The notes below the pieces were generated by a model. It was given only the letters and a program-made list of their open reading frames with translations. It did no database searches and was not told the origin of the DNA. From Cyclobacteriaceae bacterium (lineage in GTDB: Bacteria; Bacteroidota; Bacteroidia; Cytophagales; Cyclobacteriaceae), in NCBI GenBank assembly GCA_019638395.1, contig JAHBTX010000001.1, positions 558,001-622,000 on the forward strand: DNA of 64,000 bases, written 5' to 3'. Shown here piece by piece: positions 9,462 to 19,928 of this stretch (its first letter is position 1; each line of letters starts with the position of its first letter). Position numbers and translations under genes: made by a program.

Positions 9462-11360
9462 TTAATTATCCAGTACCTCATATCGTGAATAATTACTGAT
9501 AAAATTGGGGATTAATTCCTTCATTAAGGCAACCATCTTCAGTTCATTCTTATCATTGACTAAATCATAGAATAGCTCAACATATCTATTTATCTCATCA
9601 TAAGGTTGAGATTCAACTTTTCCAATCAGTATTTTTTCGTGATGGGTAGGAATCGTATCTTCCGATTTATTGAGCAACTCCTCATAAAGTTTCTCGCCTT
9701 CTCTTAACCCTGTAAACACAATTTCAATATCTTTTCCAGGTTGCATTCCAGAAAGCAGGATCATTTTCTTAGCTAGATCAGAAATTTTTACTGGCTTACC
9801 CATATCGAAGATAAAAATCTCTCCCCCTTTACCCATTGTACCTGCCTCCAAAACCAATTGGCAAGCCTCGGGAATAGTCATAAAGAATCTGGTAACTTCC
9901 GGATGTGTAACCGTGACCGGACCACCTTCCTGGATTTGCTTTTTGAATAAGGGTATTACTGATCCGTTAGAGCCTAGTACATTTCCAAATCGTGTTGTTA
10001 CAAATGCAATCGAAAAATTGCCCTCTGAATTTAATTTTTCATTTAGCGCCTGCACATAAATCTCTGCTATGCGTTTGGAGCACCCCATTACATTTGTAGG
10101 GTTTACTGCTTTGTCTGTAGAAATCATAACAAATTTTCGCACCCGGAACTTAACTGCCAAGTCAGCTATATTCTTGGTTCCAAGGATATTGCAATGAATA
10201 GCCTCACTGGGATTACTCTCCATCATGGGCACATGTTTGTAGGCTGCTGCATGATATATGATGTCAGGTCGGTTACTTTCAAGGATAGAGGCAATTCTTG
10301 CCCTGTTTGTTATATCCGCTATAAACGGAATTACCAACCCTGAATAGGTCGATTTAATCTCGCGCTCAATCTCATAAAGGGGAGACTCAGCCTGATCAAT
10401 CAAAATTATTCTCTCTGGGCTATATACTGCAATTTGTCGAACAATTTCACTTCCGATGGAACCTGCCGCACCCGTTATACAAATCCTTTTCCCTTTGATA
10501 TCATTAACAATAACCAGGTTATTTAACTGAATGGCTTCCCTTCCCAATAGTTCCTCGATATTAACTTCCCGAATTTGACTAATACTCAACTCACCTCCCA
10601 CCCACTTCTCAACCGGTGGTACGGATCTTACCTTAACCTGATTTCGTATACCCGAGTCTACAATTTCATTCTTTCTATCCAGCTGTAAATCCCGAACTGT
10701 GATCACTAGTTCATCAATATTCAATTCATCAAACAGGTGATCCAAGTTGTCTCCTCTTCCATCATAAATCTTAGTGCCATCCACTACTTTACCAATCTTA
10801 TTTGGGTTATCTTCGATGAAGCCTACAATTTGCATTCTCGGGGTAGACTCAATGACATGTCTCGTAATAATTCCAGTCTGCCCGGCCCCGTAAATCAAAA
10901 CTCTAGATTTTGACAGTATAGAACTCCGGTAGTACGTGAAAATATACTTTACCAAGAGTCTATAATTATACAGAAACAGAAAGGAAGATAATAGGCCAAT
11001 AAACACCACTGAAAATGGAACAATGAACGTCCCCACCAAGACTCGCGAAAGAGCATTAACCAAAGTAACCAAAATAACATTCAGAATAAGCATGAAGAAA
11101 ATCCTGACACCATCCTGAAGACCTGTATATCGGATAATTCCTTTGTAACTTCCCGTGATCAGAATCGAAATTAGTCCGCAAATGGCATAAACGATTACGC
11201 CTTGTTCAAACCGGCTGTTTATAAGTTCTGATACGGAGAAATTAAATCTAAGCAAGTAACCAATTAGGGCCGAAAAAAAGATTACCCCACAGTCTATTAA
11301 TATGATGACCCACCTAGGAAGGATTTTTAGTTTCCTAATTAGTACTGGAATATTTTTCAC
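9462..11360 (-). CDS. Nucleoside-diphosphate-sugar 4,6-dehydratase, CapD/WbpM/PglF type
   Basis: Membrane-anchored SDR that converts UDP-GlcNAc to a 4-keto-6-deoxy sugar, the entry to QuiNAc, FucNAc or bacillosamine. Four N-terminal membrane segments lie in residues 15-140, then a CoA-binding-like Rossmann domain with GAGQTG (158-163), then the dehydratase domain with TGAAGSIGSE (296-305). The catalytic region is STDKAVNPTNVMGCSKR (414-430), with Met in place of the usual SDR Tyr, as is normal for WbpM. The start is a GTG that overlaps the stop of the preceding 67-residue gene (GTGA). It is the last gene of the long minus-strand locus. Confidence 0.92.
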   Translation of the reverse strand: MKNIPVLIRKLKILPRWVIILIDCGVIFFSALIGYLLRFNFSVSELINSRFEQGVIVYAICGLISILITGSYKGIIRYTGLQDGVRIFFMLILNVILVTLVNALSRVLVGTFIVPFSVVFIGLLSSFLFLYNYRLLVKYIFTYYRSSILSKSRVLIYGAGQTGIITRHVIESTPRMQIVGFIEDNPNKIGKVVDGTKIYDGRGDNLDHLFDELNIDELVITVRDLQLDRKNEIVDSGIRNQVKVRSVPPVEKWVGGELSISQIREVNIEELLGREAIQLNNLVIVNDIKGKRICITGAAGSIGSEIVRQIAVYSPERIILIDQAESPLYEIEREIKSTYSGLVIPFIADITNRARIASILESNRPDIIYHAAAYKHVPMMESNPSEAIHCNILGTKNIADLAVKFRVRKFVMISTDKAVNPTNVMGCSKRIAEIYVQALNEKLNSEGNFSIAFVTTRFGNVLGSNGSVIPLFKKQIQEGGPVTVTHPEVTRFFMTIPEACQLVLEAGTMGKGGEIFIFDMGKPVKISDLAKKMILLSGMQPGKDIEIVFTGLREGEKLYEELLNKSEDTIPTHHEKILIGKVESQPYDEINRYVELFYDLVNDKNELKMVALMKELIPNFISNYSRYEVLDN

Positions 11361-11560
11361 TGATTATCTATCCTTGTTTTTTTAGACGTGAAAGACCTTT
11401 TGATTCCCAAGATACCTCCTATAGCAAGCAGAATCTCAATACCCGTAATAGGAACATCAGGATCTCCACTTGGATCACCTGGTTGAGCCGTTGCCACAAA
11501 TACCACCAAACACAATATTGTGCTAAGAAGAAGTCGTTGGATGAACAAATTCAATTTCAT
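11357..11560 (-). CDS. 67-aa protein with exosortase-type C-terminal sorting tail (PID-CTERM-like)
   Basis: A minute exported protein. Residues 1-25 are a signal peptide (cleavage after ATA before Gln). Only about ten polar residues rich in Pro, Gly and Asp follow. Then comes PITG (37-40), a short hydrophobic segment (41-53, ILLAIGGILGI) and a basic tail starting KRS. This order (motif, membrane helix, Arg/Lys cluster) is that of exosortase substrates, and the form resembles the tails named PID-CTERM in Bacteroidota. The XrtF-like exosortase is 6.6 kb away in the same locus. The start ATG overlaps the stop of the giant gene (ATGA) and the stop overlaps the capD GTG, so it is translated with both. 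That it is an XrtF substrate is inference. Confidence 0.75.
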   Translation of the reverse strand: MKLNLFIQRLLLSTILCLVVFVATAQPGDPSGDPDVPITGIEILLAIGGILGIKRSFTSKKTRIDNQ

Positions 11561-16664: not shown

Positions 16665-17753
16665 CTAAATCAATTCCTTAACAGAAGCAACACGCTGATG
16701 AGACCCAGATCCACTGGGTAAGCAAATGACCTCCTGAAACAACTGTTCGGATATATTTGATTGTATCATCGGAAAGGCTGACAGGTGCTTCATGGTATGC
16801 AACGGATTCCATCCTCTCCGAACTTCAAAGCCCTTTTTTTCGAGGTTTTGAGCTATTTTTTGTGGTTTTAGCGAAGTGTTAAATCTAAAGGCTGACAACC
16901 AGCGGCTGGCTACATCTCCTTTAAGCGGTTCGGCCCAACTGATCTGAGGATTACCCTTAAAAGCCTCGCAATAGCGGGTAAAAATTTCCTGACGTTGCGC
17001 TACCAAGTGTTGGGACTGCTTCATTTGCATTAGCCCGTAAGCTGCTGTTAACGGACTCATCCGGTAGTTAAATCCAGTCTCATCAAATAAGTAGAATGAT
17101 TTAGGCAACCGCGCCTGAGACGCCAGAAAGCGGGTTCGCTTTTCCCATTTCGAGTTTGAGGTAGTTAATAATCCACCACCAAAGGCCGTTACCGTTTTAT
17201 TACTGTTAAACGAAAAGACGCCAATATCGCCTACCGAGCCACACGGCCTGGTGTTTATTGAGGCACCCCAGGCTTCCGCTGCATCTTCTATTACCGGCAC
17301 TGCATACCGTTTAGCCAGTGCCATGATCTCCTTCATATTGGCCGGCACACCGTAATTATGCACCACGATGATGGCTTTAATACGTTTTGATTTAGTGTTA
17401 AACTTTTTGAGTGCCTTTGCCAACAACTCCGGGCAAATGTTCCAGGTTGCCTCCTCACTATCTATCCACACCGGCTTTGCACCTGTATAAAGTACCGGGT
17501 TAACGGATGCCACATACGAGAATGTTGGTACTGCTACCAAGTCACCCGCACCGATGTTGAGCGCGGCCAAGGCAAGATGTAGTGCTGCTGTTCCAGATGA
17601 AACCGCTACCACAGGTCTGTTTAAAAGCTGTGATGAAGTTGCTTTTTCAAAATCAAAAACAATTTCCTCATGATTCCGATGCTGATAGTTCAACAATACC
17701 TCATGTAAACCCTGTACATCAATTTGGTTATAAGACAATGGATGTTTATGCAC
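16665..17753 (-). CDS. DegT/DnrJ/EryC1-family sugar aminotransferase
   Basis: PLP enzyme that normally aminates a keto-sugar nucleotide using glutamate. With the GTG start used here (362 residues) the fold-type I landmarks are SSGTAAL (52-58), the ring-nitrogen Asp157 in VIEDAAEAWGA, and the Schiff-base Lys186 in FSFNSNK. There is no ATG near the N-terminus; the alternatives are this GTG, with an 8-base overlap with the upstream gene, or a TTG at 17787-17789 that adds 12 residues. Its likely substrate is the 4-keto sugar made by the CapD-type enzyme. The N-terminal HKHPLSYNQIDVQG is not the usual IPLSSP form of PglE, so the exact sugar is open. Confidence 0.85.
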   Translation of the reverse strand: MHKHPLSYNQIDVQGLHEVLLNYQHRNHEEIVFDFEKATSSQLLNRPVVAVSSGTAALHLALAALNIGAGDLVAVPTFSYVASVNPVLYTGAKPVWIDSEEATWNICPELLAKALKKFNTKSKRIKAIIVVHNYGVPANMKEIMALAKRYAVPVIEDAAEAWGASINTRPCGSVGDIGVFSFNSNKTVTAFGGGLLTTSNSKWEKRTRFLASQARLPKSFYLFDETGFNYRMSPLTAAYGLMQMKQSQHLVAQRQEIFTRYCEAFKGNPQISWAEPLKGDVASRWLSAFRFNTSLKPQKIAQNLEKKGFEVRRGWNPLHTMKHLSAFPMIQSNISEQLFQEVICLPSGSGSHQRVASVKELI

Positions 17754-18174
17754 GTATATCAGCGGTAATTTTTTGATAATAAAAACCAACTATCAAGATA
17801 ATCATCAACAACGGATTTACAATGATACGATGGATCTGCGACAGCAAAGGTGAAGAAATTTCTGAGGCTCCCTCCAGGTTTAACTTGATAATAAAATAGA
17901 TCGGAAGCATTATTAATAGTTCGATGAGGAAAACCACGAAAGCTGCTCGCAGATACTTCATTTGGCCAAACAAACTCCAAATTAACAACATGCACGCACC
18001 ATCATTTATGATTAATCTGATAGTACGATTGAAAATAAAAACTTTATAAGGATGACTAATTGAAAGACTCTCCGGAAGTACAACATTCGCTAAACCCGCA
18101 TAACTAACTTTTTGAAATACATATACGAGCAGTAGTATAAGTATGGCTGTAACCATGCCAGTCAGGCGTTTCAT
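17746..18174 (-). CDS. Exosortase F-associated membrane protein
   Basis: 142 residues with four hydrophobic segments (about 7-24, 50-68, 77-95 and 115-132). In Bacteroidota a small protein of this kind follows the XrtF exosortase, and both size and topology fit. Here its ATG overlaps the exosortase stop codon (ATGA), and its own end overlaps the aminotransferase start. It has no catalytic motif visible; a helper role for the exosortase is inferred from conserved pairing. Confidence 0.8.
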   Translation of the reverse strand: MKRLTGMVTAILILLLVYVFQKVSYAGLANVVLPESLSISHPYKVFIFNRTIRLIINDGACMLLIWSLFGQMKYLRAAFVVFLIELLIMLPIYFIIKLNLEGASEISSPLLSQIHRIIVNPLLMIILIVGFYYQKITADIRA

Positions 18175-18719
18175 GATTGCCGGGATTTAAGTATTCCTTT
18201 CACGGAAACTCCGCTTACTTTTTCAATCCACCACCACCAGAGAATGAAAACAATTAAATAAATAACAGCTGTGAACATGTACTTATGTATGTAATAAAAA
18301 TATTGTCGCCAATATTCAGCAACATAATAGAGTGCAACAATTCGAAATAGATTAGCGATGTATATTAACCCCAGACCCACAGGAAGAAACCATGCTAATT
18401 TTTTCCAACTACCTCTAAAGGCAAATAAGAACGAAATAAAAACAATCATCACGTTGATGCTGTTGCAACCTTCAAAAACACTTAGCACAACACGCATGTC
18501 TTTAAAAATAGCAACTGTTGGTGTGTTGGGTTTGGGTTGAGTGTAAGTACTTTCGCCAATCAGATTCAGTATCCAGGAGGTTTGTTGCGTTATTAAAATC
18601 GTGGCCGGATCAGCTTGTTTACCAAATGATGAAATCCACATCCCATAAACGACATTAAGGCCCACGTAAAGTCCAAGGAAAATTATTAGAAACCGAAAGG
18701 CTGGAGCAAATTCTTTCAT
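18171..18719 (-). CDS. xrtF: Exosortase, XrtF type
   Basis: Integral membrane cysteine transpeptidase-like enzyme that cleaves C-terminal sorting tails of exported proteins. The 182 residues show four to five membrane helices and the exosortase triad: Cys85 in EGCNSINV, Arg126 in ANLFRIVALYY, and His145 in YYIHKYMF. The short length and the C-terminal WWWW stretch fit the Bacteroidota XrtF group. It is followed by the XrtF-associated gene and preceded by sugar genes. The best local substrate candidate is the 67-residue protein at 11357-11560. Confidence 0.9.
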   Translation of the reverse strand: MKEFAPAFRFLIIFLGLYVGLNVVYGMWISSFGKQADPATILITQQTSWILNLIGESTYTQPKPNTPTVAIFKDMRVVLSVFEGCNSINVMIVFISFLFAFRGSWKKLAWFLPVGLGLIYIANLFRIVALYYVAEYWRQYFYYIHKYMFTAVIYLIVFILWWWWIEKVSGVSVKGILKSRQS

Positions 18720-18720
18720 A

Positions 18721-19353
18721 TTAATCTTTTACGCGGGCAGGAACACCCATAACCGTACTATGTTGTGCCACCGGTTTTGTTACAATGGCACCGGCACCTA
18801 TCCGGGCACCCTCACCAATTTGTATATTTTGTAATATGGAAGCGCCCGTTCCAACCAGCACCAACTTTTCAATTTCGACAAATCCAGAAATATGAACACC
18901 AGGCATAATTGATGAATAACTTCCGATAAATGCATCATGCCCGATGGTTGAGCTTAAGTTAACCAGCACATGCTCACCAATCTTAATATCAATTGTTAAA
19001 TGGCAGCCTGCTGTGATGACGGAGCCAACGCCAAGCTGAACATTCATACCGATTGTTGCTGTGGGATGAATTAAAGTTGGAAAGCTGATGTTTACATTAT
19101 TAATTTGACTAACCACCCGGGACTTTATTACCGGATCAGCAATTGCAACAACTACGTGAAGCGGGAAGTCAACTTTGTTTAACTCAGACACCTTCCCTAT
19201 TACCAAATGTGCAGCTATACTTTTGCCGACAGGATGCCAGTCATCATAAAAACCAACCACGTTCCACATCGGCTTTAAGGTATTGATTTGGTGTATCAGT
19301 ACCAATATTTCCTTTCCTAATCCACCGGCACCAATTATGGCAATTTTATTCAT
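18721..19353 (-). CDS. NeuD/PglD-like sugar O- or N-acyltransferase
   Basis: 210 residues. An N-terminal Rossmann-like domain begins IAIIGAGGLGKEI, followed by a left-handed beta-helix of hexapeptide repeats (about 90-205), the typical two-domain build of PglD, PerB and NeuD. It uses acetyl-CoA to acetylate an amino sugar. The ATG overlaps the stop of the PglC-like gene (ATGA), so the pair mirrors pglC-pglD. With the aminotransferase and CapD it could finish a bacillosamine-like sugar; this is inferred from context. Confidence 0.87.
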   Translation of the reverse strand: MNKIAIIGAGGLGKEILVLIHQINTLKPMWNVVGFYDDWHPVGKSIAAHLVIGKVSELNKVDFPLHVVVAIADPVIKSRVVSQINNVNISFPTLIHPTATIGMNVQLGVGSVITAGCHLTIDIKIGEHVLVNLSSTIGHDAFIGSYSSIMPGVHISGFVEIEKLVLVGTGASILQNIQIGEGARIGAGAIVTKPVAQHSTVMGVPARVKD

Positions 19354-19928
19354 TTCGACAATTTCGCTTCTTCTAAAGATATATCCTTCTTAAAACTTAT
19401 TAAGAGGACTAAAGTTCTTACCAAAATTTTCATATCCAATAAAAATGAAATGTTGTTCACATACTCTATATCCAACCTGAATTTATCAGTCCACGGCAAA
19501 TTATTTTTACCATTGACTTGAGCTAACCCGGTGATTCCAGGACGCACGGTGTGTCGAATGTTCTGTTCTGCTGTAATATAGGAAACATACTCAACCGGCA
19601 AAGGTCTTGGTCCTACCCAAGACATTTCGCCTTTTAGAATATTCAAAATTTGCGGTAACTCATCAAGATTGGTATTTCTCAAAAAATTACCCCAACAAAA
19701 TTTTCGATCTTTTAAAGGCCTTGTATAATTAGGGTGGAGTGATCTAAATTTATACAAAATAAAGGTCTTGTTATTAAGACCCATTCTTTTTTGAGAGAAA
19801 AAAATTGAACCTTGTGCCTGAACCAGGTAACCTATAACTATTAAAATTACTACTGTTATAACAGGAGCCAATACCAGTAGAATTATACTGTAATCAACAA
19901 CAGGTTTGATTTTAGAATACCTCATCAT
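19350..19928 (-). CDS. Undecaprenyl-phosphate phosphoglycosyltransferase, PglC type
   Basis: Monotopic bacterial sugar transferase that moves a sugar 1-phosphate from its nucleotide to undecaprenyl phosphate, starting a repeat unit. One N-terminal hydrophobic segment (about 12-33) is followed by the family core: KFRSL, then the catalytic NLDELPQ with the Asp-Glu pair, and GEMSWVGPRPLP. At 192 residues it is the short PglC form without the WbaP extension. It is one of two different priming enzymes in this locus, the other being the gene just upstream. Confidence 0.92.
   Translation of the reverse strand: MMRYSKIKPVVDYSIILLVLAPVITVVILIVIGYLVQAQGSIFFSQKRMGLNNKTFILYKFRSLHPNYTRPLKDRKFCWGNFLRNTNLDELPQILNILKGEMSWVGPRPLPVEYVSYITAEQNIRHTVRPGITGLAQVNGKNNLPWTDKFRLDIEYVNNISFLLDMKILVRTLVLLISFKKDISLEEAKLSK

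Follow-up and report, generated by a model that had tools for sequence, protein, structure and literature searches.

A membrane enzyme with conserved Cys, Arg, and His residues has been proposed to cut the C-terminal tails of PEP-CTERM proteins, the three residues being suggested to form the catalytic triad of EpsH-type enzymes (PMC1569441). For a related enzyme, XrtF of Flavobacterium johnsoniae, deletion of xrtF or of its partner gene results in much less biofilm, an absence of zorbs, and reduced colonization of sand; the identification of XrtF substrates is left to future research in that study (PMC10936215). Type A cargo of the type IX secretion system (T9SS) in Porphyromonas and Tannerella is described as carrying an amino-sugar derivative amide-bonded to its new C terminus (PMC7468200), and the artA-pssA-pssD genes of archaea provide a precedent for sorting-enzyme neighbors that make the acceptor (PMC7157517). 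The present analysis concerns a 64,000-nucleotide stretch of DNA (the window) from a Cyclobacteriaceae bacterium (GenBank assembly GCA_019638395.1, contig JAHBTX010000001.1, positions 558,001 to 622,000 of the forward strand), in which a gene for a 67-residue protein with a sorting-like C-terminal tail lies between the gene of a T9SS cargo protein and a dehydratase gene, in the same locus as xrtF. This tail protein is very probably a substrate of XrtF, and the best explanation of the observations as a whole, which we consider probable, is that it is a dedicated substrate without a protein body, the peptide released from it working together with T9SS cargo. Genomes (G), loci (L), and families (f) are cited by the handles of the analysis. 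The components of the module are as follows, in window coordinates.

11357..11560, minus strand: 67-residue tail protein, candidate XrtF substrate
11486..11560, minus strand: predicted signal peptide of the tail protein, residues 1-25, with cleavage before Q26 (from hydropathy and the Bacteroidetes Q-rule)
11360..11452, minus strand: C-terminal sorting-like tail, residues 37-67, consisting of PITGIE, a hydrophobic helix, and basic residues
11557..16554, minus strand: 1665-residue T9SS type A cargo protein, the partner gene, with a 4-base overlap with the tail gene (TIGR04183 and PF18962)
17746..18174, minus strand: exosortase F system-associated membrane protein (TIGR04127 33.6 bits, just under the cut-off of 35; syntenic)
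18171..18719, minus strand: exosortase XrtF, with C85, R126, and H145 (TIGR04128 133.9 bits, cut-off 90)

Translation and hydropathy bear out the layout given in a preliminary description of this DNA, a signal peptide and short polar linker followed by PITG, a 13-residue hydrophobic run, and a basic tail. The divisions, which are our own assignment, are MKLNLFIQRLLLSTILCLVVFVATA, QPGDPSGDPDV, PITG, IEILLAIGGILGI, and KRSFTSKKTRIDNQ in the translated open reading frame (ORF). Hydrophobic peaks are located at residues 10-24 (2.73) and 38-53 (1.99) in a 15-residue Kyte-Doolittle window, and the linker between the signal peptide and PITGIE has 11 residues and is rich in Pro, Gly, and Asp. The same description had the gene overlapping both the giant T9SS gene and the dehydratase gene, and the ORF does share 4 bases with each neighbor, ATGA with the T9SS gene upstream and GTGA with the dehydratase gene downstream, which suggests translational coupling.

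A short ORF that overlaps both of its neighbors and matches no family model might be a spurious reading frame between two coding genes, an explanation to which we assign virtually no probability, because homologues are found in place across the genus and are under purifying selection. In a search of 58 genomes, homologues (expectation value, E, ≤ 1e-3) were found in 28 of the 36 genomes of the same genus and in G041 and G050 of other families; all 28 same-genus loci are flanked by matches to the T9SS protein and the dehydratase, whereas in G041 and G050 the upstream match is kept and the downstream match is not. The relatives at named loci (n = 22) are metagenome-assembled Cyclobacteriaceae, Flammeovirgaceae, and Cytophagales. 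P27, P30, P34, P37, G40, G48, and G52 (window numbering) are invariant among the tail homologues compared (27 of 30). The core of the tail protein is under purifying selection, with proportions of nonsynonymous differences (pN) of 0.08-0.24 and of synonymous differences (pS) of 0.45-0.99 in 28 pairs drawn from 8 of the 30 sequences, including that of the window. A rule describing the architecture is satisfied by this ORF alone among 181 six-frame ORFs of 45-120 residues in the window. A chance ORF is ruled out by the genus conservation, the fixed gene position, the purifying selection, and the unique architecture together.

In the tail profile A1, a small or aliphatic residue followed by Gln precedes the linker in all 27 rows, a pattern that fits the Bacteroidetes Q-rule, under which cleavage by signal peptidase I uncovers a glutamine, which is then cyclized (PMC10653852). 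The motif that follows the linker is PI[TS]G[ILV]E in 25 rows and P[IL]DGG in the remaining two. The window protein has the layout of a PID-CTERM protein, with a motif, a helix, and a basic end in a small secreted protein of an exosortase-containing genome, but its filing under that family is ruled out by the cut-off of the model (NF046080, at least 26 bits): the window protein has no match to it up to an E of 10, and the tail locus is not among the matches of a whole-genome search to the same limit. It is a relative only, a diverged cousin of PID-CTERM lying under that model's cut-off. The Pro-Glu-Pro motif that precedes the helix in PEP-CTERM proteins is absent from the tail protein.

The exosortase, which the preliminary description had also placed in this locus, is encoded 6.6 kb upstream of the tail gene on the same strand; it exceeds the TIGR04128 cut-off, as listed above, and C85, R126, and H145 are conserved in 37 of 37 aligned exosortase rows, of which 36 are distinct (38 loci were tried, and L114 and L115 yielded no aligned row). 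Its score of 126.9 bits with the XrtX model (cut-off 170) places it near both XrtF and XrtX. These near-equal scores lie far under the XrtF scores of family f25 (205-243 bits), which on account of those high values is taken to be Flavobacteriaceae, and the window enzyme may belong to a separate subfamily. The genome of the window contains a single TIGR04128 match and a single tail-profile match, no second exosortase (E ≤ 1e-3) or second tail (E ≤ 0.1) being found in it, and therefore looks like a one-to-one system.

The tail and XrtF occur together (E ≤ 1e-3) in 24 of the 36 same-genus genomes, and neither occurs in four (G015, G017, G018, and G022); the remainder, with one gene each, are considered below. 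Both genes are on one contig in 19 of the 24, always on the same strand and separated by 4.2-7.8 kb, with the tail downstream; the other 5 genomes have them on separate contigs. Three further genomes of the same family, G132, G167, and G249, have neither XrtF nor an A1 match. In G015, which has no XrtF match, a tail-like ORF (L110, 9172-9375) with the decayed motif PVDD lies beside a broken pglF-like dehydratase gene, and it looks like a case of decay following loss of the enzyme.

On the scale of the phylum, the same 296 Bacteroidota genomes were searched for TIGR04128, PID-CTERM, and profile A1. A TIGR04128 match (E ≤ 1e-3) is present in 90, many of them under the model cut-off, so that XrtX- and XrtY-like enzymes are included; PID-CTERM is over its cut-off in 47 and A1 (E ≤ 1e-3) is matched in 55. 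The exosortase is present in all 47 PID-CTERM genomes and in 54 of the 55 A1 genomes, or in 60 of the 61 genomes with either tail signal compared with 30 of the 235 without. The family is thus not as common without an exosortase as with one, so that the equal frequency which the preliminary description had named as refuting its proposal is not what is seen; the one tail-bearing genome that lacks the enzyme is G248, where the match sits in a 436-residue frame. Weak matches, with A1 at E 0.01-0.1 (6 of 41) or PID-CTERM below its cut-off (14 of 40), do not track the exosortase; they were not counted as members, and they serve as a control for the association. Genomes from other families, seven in number, have the tail gene directly upstream of the exosortase gene on the same strand, at eight places (G047, G328, G171, G102, G090, G051, and two places in G050). 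Tail and exosortase genes are thus found at one locus in the genus and in these seven genomes, and mostly lie apart in the rest of the phylum sample. For the enzyme of G171 and both enzymes of G050 the best model is XrtX or XrtY, below their cut-offs, with TIGR04178, the general exosortase model, over its cut-off.

The presence of the exosortase in all but one of the tail-bearing genomes and the direct adjacency of the genes also bear on the alternative that the protein is a small membrane protein that is never cleaved and acts, for instance, as chaperone or regulator of the T9SS cargo encoded upstream, its co-occurrence with the exosortase having another cause. It should be recognized that the strong pairing with T9SS genes described below needs no cleavage by itself, and that some relatives have a CxxC-rich, possibly cytoplasmic, N-terminal extension, but it is the linker and the sorting-like tail that are most conserved, and this, with the co-occurrence and adjacency, makes such a role distinctly improbable. 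The extended ORFs (L126, L129, L131, L170, and L175, in genomes G183, G103, G199, and G219 of family f41) begin with a zinc-ribbon-like CxxC...CxxC segment of about 50-60 residues, followed by a second Met and a signal-like segment; the CxxC-containing segment may be an additional cytoplasmic domain, or the start may be misassigned.

Ten tail loci of family f25 share one gene order; at L062 the neighbors are ribE (riboflavin synthase), pdxA, and fabH, and the other nine loci were judged by size and order. The prediction of a tail at the ribE slot in XrtF-containing f25 genomes came true: among those that lacked a prior tail match, a tail-like ORF carrying a P-I-D or A-I-D motif is present at this slot in 7 of 9 (the exceptions being G114 and G257), the slot has no tail in any of the 6 f25 genomes without XrtF, and 3 of 4 f25 genomes with a tail elsewhere have a ribE-slot tail as well. 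When these finds and those in G140 and G340 are added, 69 of the 90 exosortase genomes have a tail. The ribE slot of family f24 has no credible tail in 6 genomes, the ORF of G151 passing the hydropathy test only and lacking the motif; the f24 genomes (G069, G151, G265, G320, G332, and G336) have a strong XrtF (189-233 bits) and no tail by profile. The proposal of the preliminary description that the tail protein is a candidate XrtF substrate is therefore well supported, as far as genome comparison can support it, by co-occurrence, synteny, gene adjacency, and the outcome at the ribE slot.

Of the new results, the pairing of the tail with T9SS cargo is the stronger. The protein encoded upstream in the window has a C-terminal T9SS domain (TIGR04183 37.2 bits, cut-off 23; PF18962 40.1 bits, cut-off 27). 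In a sample of 60 tail matches, hand-picked from the PID-CTERM and A1 lists in 36 genomes, 56 are preceded on the same strand by an ORF of 120 or more residues that ends no more than 600 bases ahead of the tail, and the 100-residue ends of these ORFs match TIGR04183 (E ≤ 1e-3) in 52. Tails that immediately follow a T9SS type A gene thus amount to 52 of 60, in 32 of the 36 genomes and with a median gap of 69 bases, compared with a chance expectation of 0.99 of 60, calculated from the 7-116 T9SS type A genes per genome with an assumed density of one gene per 1.1 kb. The sample is mostly from family f41, with cases also in f13, f22, f23, f39, f60, and f68. The usual partner of the tail is therefore a T9SS protein and not a polysaccharide. 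When ten partners were scanned, the PF18962 sorting domain was found in all ten and an LTD domain in five, with fn3, FctA-like, and Calx-beta matches in one or two each.

Predicted mature peptides from the same genome have a median identity of 82%, compared with 22% for the partner bodies and 53% for their sorting domains (32 pairs), in a comparison that is rough because several mature starts were misparsed. Since the peptides are alike and the cargo bodies unlike, the near-common peptide suggests a consumable tag more than a specific partner, and it is quite probable that the pairing of tail and cargo is functional. Short mature peptides that are similar within a genome might be secreted signals, freed by XrtF and sensed by the same or neighboring cells, but several genomes contain multiple copies, mostly one behind each of several T9SS cargo genes, an arrangement that better suits a stoichiometric component, and we regard signaling as very improbable.

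PorU (NF033707, E ≤ 1e-10) is detected in 204 of the 296 genomes and in 75 of the 90 that have an exosortase. SprA is present in all 15 PorU-less exosortase genomes and in 5 others tested (20 of 20). The 15 genomes in which SprA is present and PorU undetected are G136, G137, G155, G164, G175, G178, G194, G203, G207, G227, G258, G269, G305, G316, and G329. Nine of them are represented in the 60-locus sample, where 11 of their 13 tails still follow a gene with a T9SS signal. From these observations it could be proposed that the XrtF/XrtX-type exosortases of Bacteroidota and their tails constitute a second, PorU-independent route of attachment for chosen T9SS cargo, in which a peptide tag would be coupled to a lipid or sugar-lipid and every chosen cargo gene would be followed by a separate copy of this nearly common tag; we consider this extension of the model rather unlikely.

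Genes resembling those of bacillosamine synthesis surround the module.

9462..11360, minus strand: PglF-like membrane UDP-GlcNAc 4,6-dehydratase (PF02719 400.8 bits; closest solved structure WlaL, 5bju, E 6.3e-93)
16665..17789, minus strand: PglE-like aminotransferase (PF01041 253.4 bits; 7b0m E 2.2e-64, 4ztc E 7e-52)
18721..19353, minus strand: PglD/NeuD-like sugar N-acetyltransferase (TIGR03570 182.9 bits, cut-off 160.8)
19350..19928, minus strand: PglC-like phosphoglycosyl transferase (PF02397 175 bits)

WlaL (5bju) is presumably PglF, and we take structure 4ztc to be PglE; the true start of the aminotransferase is probably inside the listed ORF. The acetyltransferase is nearer to VioB (7txp, E 1.1e-29) than to PglD (3bss, E 1.9e-12), and the PglC-like protein matches the diacetylbacillosaminyl-1-phosphate transferase 8e37 with an E of 5.9e-41. 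The set resembles one for the synthesis of UDP-diacetylbacillosamine and its transfer to lipid, and other amino sugars are possible products. Among 25 loci, 15 reach xrtF (in 14 genomes, L079 and L089 belonging to a single genome). The order pglD-xrtF-partner-pglE-T9SS-tail-pglF is shared by every one of the 15, and pglC precedes it in 12. A long cluster of polysaccharide genes, with what we read from Pfam matches as Wzx-, Wzy-, Wza-, and Wzc-like genes, occupies 19944-50658 of the window on the minus strand and also includes a NeuB-like synthase, a formyltransferase, and an asparagine-synthase-like gene.

The preliminary description suggested that the peptide might be a linker or primer attached to polysaccharide, which in this setting would be that of the surrounding cluster, with the T9SS protein having no part in it. 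The presence of the cluster, the placement of the exosortase within the PglC/D/E/F-like set, and the general proximity of exosortases to exopolysaccharide genes, noted in the EpsH report (PMC1569441), are in keeping with this suggestion, but elsewhere 52 of 60 sampled tails are behind T9SS cargo, so that it does not hold as a general rule. Moreover, the three xrtF-less relatives G132, G167, and G249 retain a contiguous pglE-pglC-pglF group at a locus where neither a T9SS match nor the partner gene nor a tail is present, and the sugar set therefore does not need the tail. A polysaccharide linker independent of the T9SS protein thus appears improbable. As a general partner, polysaccharide is ruled out, the full Pgl-like set flanking the module in the window's family alone among the loci examined; a role for the tail within the Pgl-like pathway itself is unlikely in view of the same xrtF-less relatives.

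In the mechanism that we propose for a dedicated XrtF substrate working with T9SS cargo, the tail protein would be exported by Sec and cut before Q26 by signal peptidase I, and the new N-terminal glutamine would probably be converted to pyroglutamate. XrtF, through Cys85, Arg126, and His145, would then cut at or near PIT-G and hand the peptide of about 14 residues to an acceptor, after which the peptide would act with the type A cargo encoded immediately upstream. The peptide would most likely tag the cargo or form part of its surface anchor, a role that is put forward tentatively. A sugar acceptor is possible in the window's family, where the surrounding PglC/D/E/F-like enzymes may make a bacillosamine-type sugar-lipid for this purpose; that the acceptor is such a sugar-lipid is doubtful.

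Several points weigh against this interpretation. Cleavage, transfer, the anchoring role, and the acceptor are steps that we infer, and the tail protein has no match among the NCBIfam and Pfam models. The p value for the association between tail and exosortase (Fisher, about 1e-38), like the other p values, ignores relatedness. No tail was found in 21 of the 90 exosortase genomes, among which is every one of the 6 from family f24. A profile search was the sole check in 13 of the 21, and absences are soft, since the genome searches score only part of their first-look candidates, for A1 usually 21 in each genome. Four of the 36 same-genus genomes have the tail without XrtF (G004, G009, G028, and G033), and four have XrtF without the tail (G011, G012, G020, and G021). 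In the former the tail is less than 4 kb from the contig start, under the smallest tail-XrtF distance seen, so that the expected position of XrtF falls off the contig; XrtF was not found elsewhere in these genomes either, even in G033, which is listed as 100% complete. In the latter, G012 has at the end of its contig only the opening codons of the tail gene, which read MKLNYLIIR like those of G023, the contig of G011 stops within the T9SS gene, and G020 has only fragments of XrtF. G021 is a true exception, in which xrtF is kept but the T9SS giant and the tail are both absent from the locus, the xrtF, partner, and pglE-like genes being followed by ORFs that we read as glycosyltransferase-like and peptidase-like; since both are missing despite the presence of xrtF, the giant and the tail go together. 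Eight of the 60 sampled tails have no T9SS partner; whole-protein scans of seven doubtful cases showed the upstream proteins at L138 and L165 to be fumarase-like, those at L172 and L177 to match nothing, and that at L139 to have no TIGR04183 match, which gives a strict pairing count of 51. No T9SS partner is seen at the ten ribE-type loci of family f25, neighbors having been identified at L062 only. Finally, the full Pgl-like set is found beside an exosortase in the window's family only, among the loci examined, the nearest exceptions being G328, with a pglC-like gene close to its exosortase gene, and G174, with a pglD-like one.

The analysis provides a concrete candidate family of XrtF substrates with a predicted gene location, and the pairing of exosortase-linked tails with T9SS cargo, seen across several families of Bacteroidota, links two pathways that are not known to be connected; we found no report of such a pairing in literature searches that covered few subscription papers. 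If the interpretation is correct, exosortase and T9SS sorting, which are treated as separate systems, cooperate, and the question of XrtF substrates becomes directly testable.

Of the described systems, PID-CTERM (NF046080) shares with the tail family a P-I-x-G motif, a short helix, a basic end, and mostly small ORFs, and the relative in G041, whose upstream gene matches the T9SS protein of the window, scores 34.9 bits against the cut-off of 26, but the window protein has PITGIE in place of PIDGG, and four same-genus relatives score 8-14 bits. The PEP-CTERM/EpsH system is similar in its motif, transmembrane helix, and basic tail and in its membrane enzyme with conserved Cys, Arg, and His, whereas the tail of the window has no PEP motif, almost no body between signal peptide and tail, and a gene paired with that of a T9SS protein. 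T9SS type A attachment is likewise a form of C-terminal sorting, but a T9SS signal is absent from the tail protein, an exosortase is predicted to process it at the inner membrane, and such exosortases occur in 15 genomes without detectable PorU. In the ArtA system with PssA and PssD, gene neighbors contribute to acceptor synthesis in some species, and the product is a lipid on surface proteins (PMC7157517); here it would possibly be a sugar-lipid on a peptide of about 14 residues. With the XrtF system of F. johnsoniae, the window shares the enzyme family and the kind of partner gene, and it differs in offering a candidate substrate family, from which it is predicted that the substrate of Flavobacterium XrtF is the product of the tiny gene adjoining ribE.

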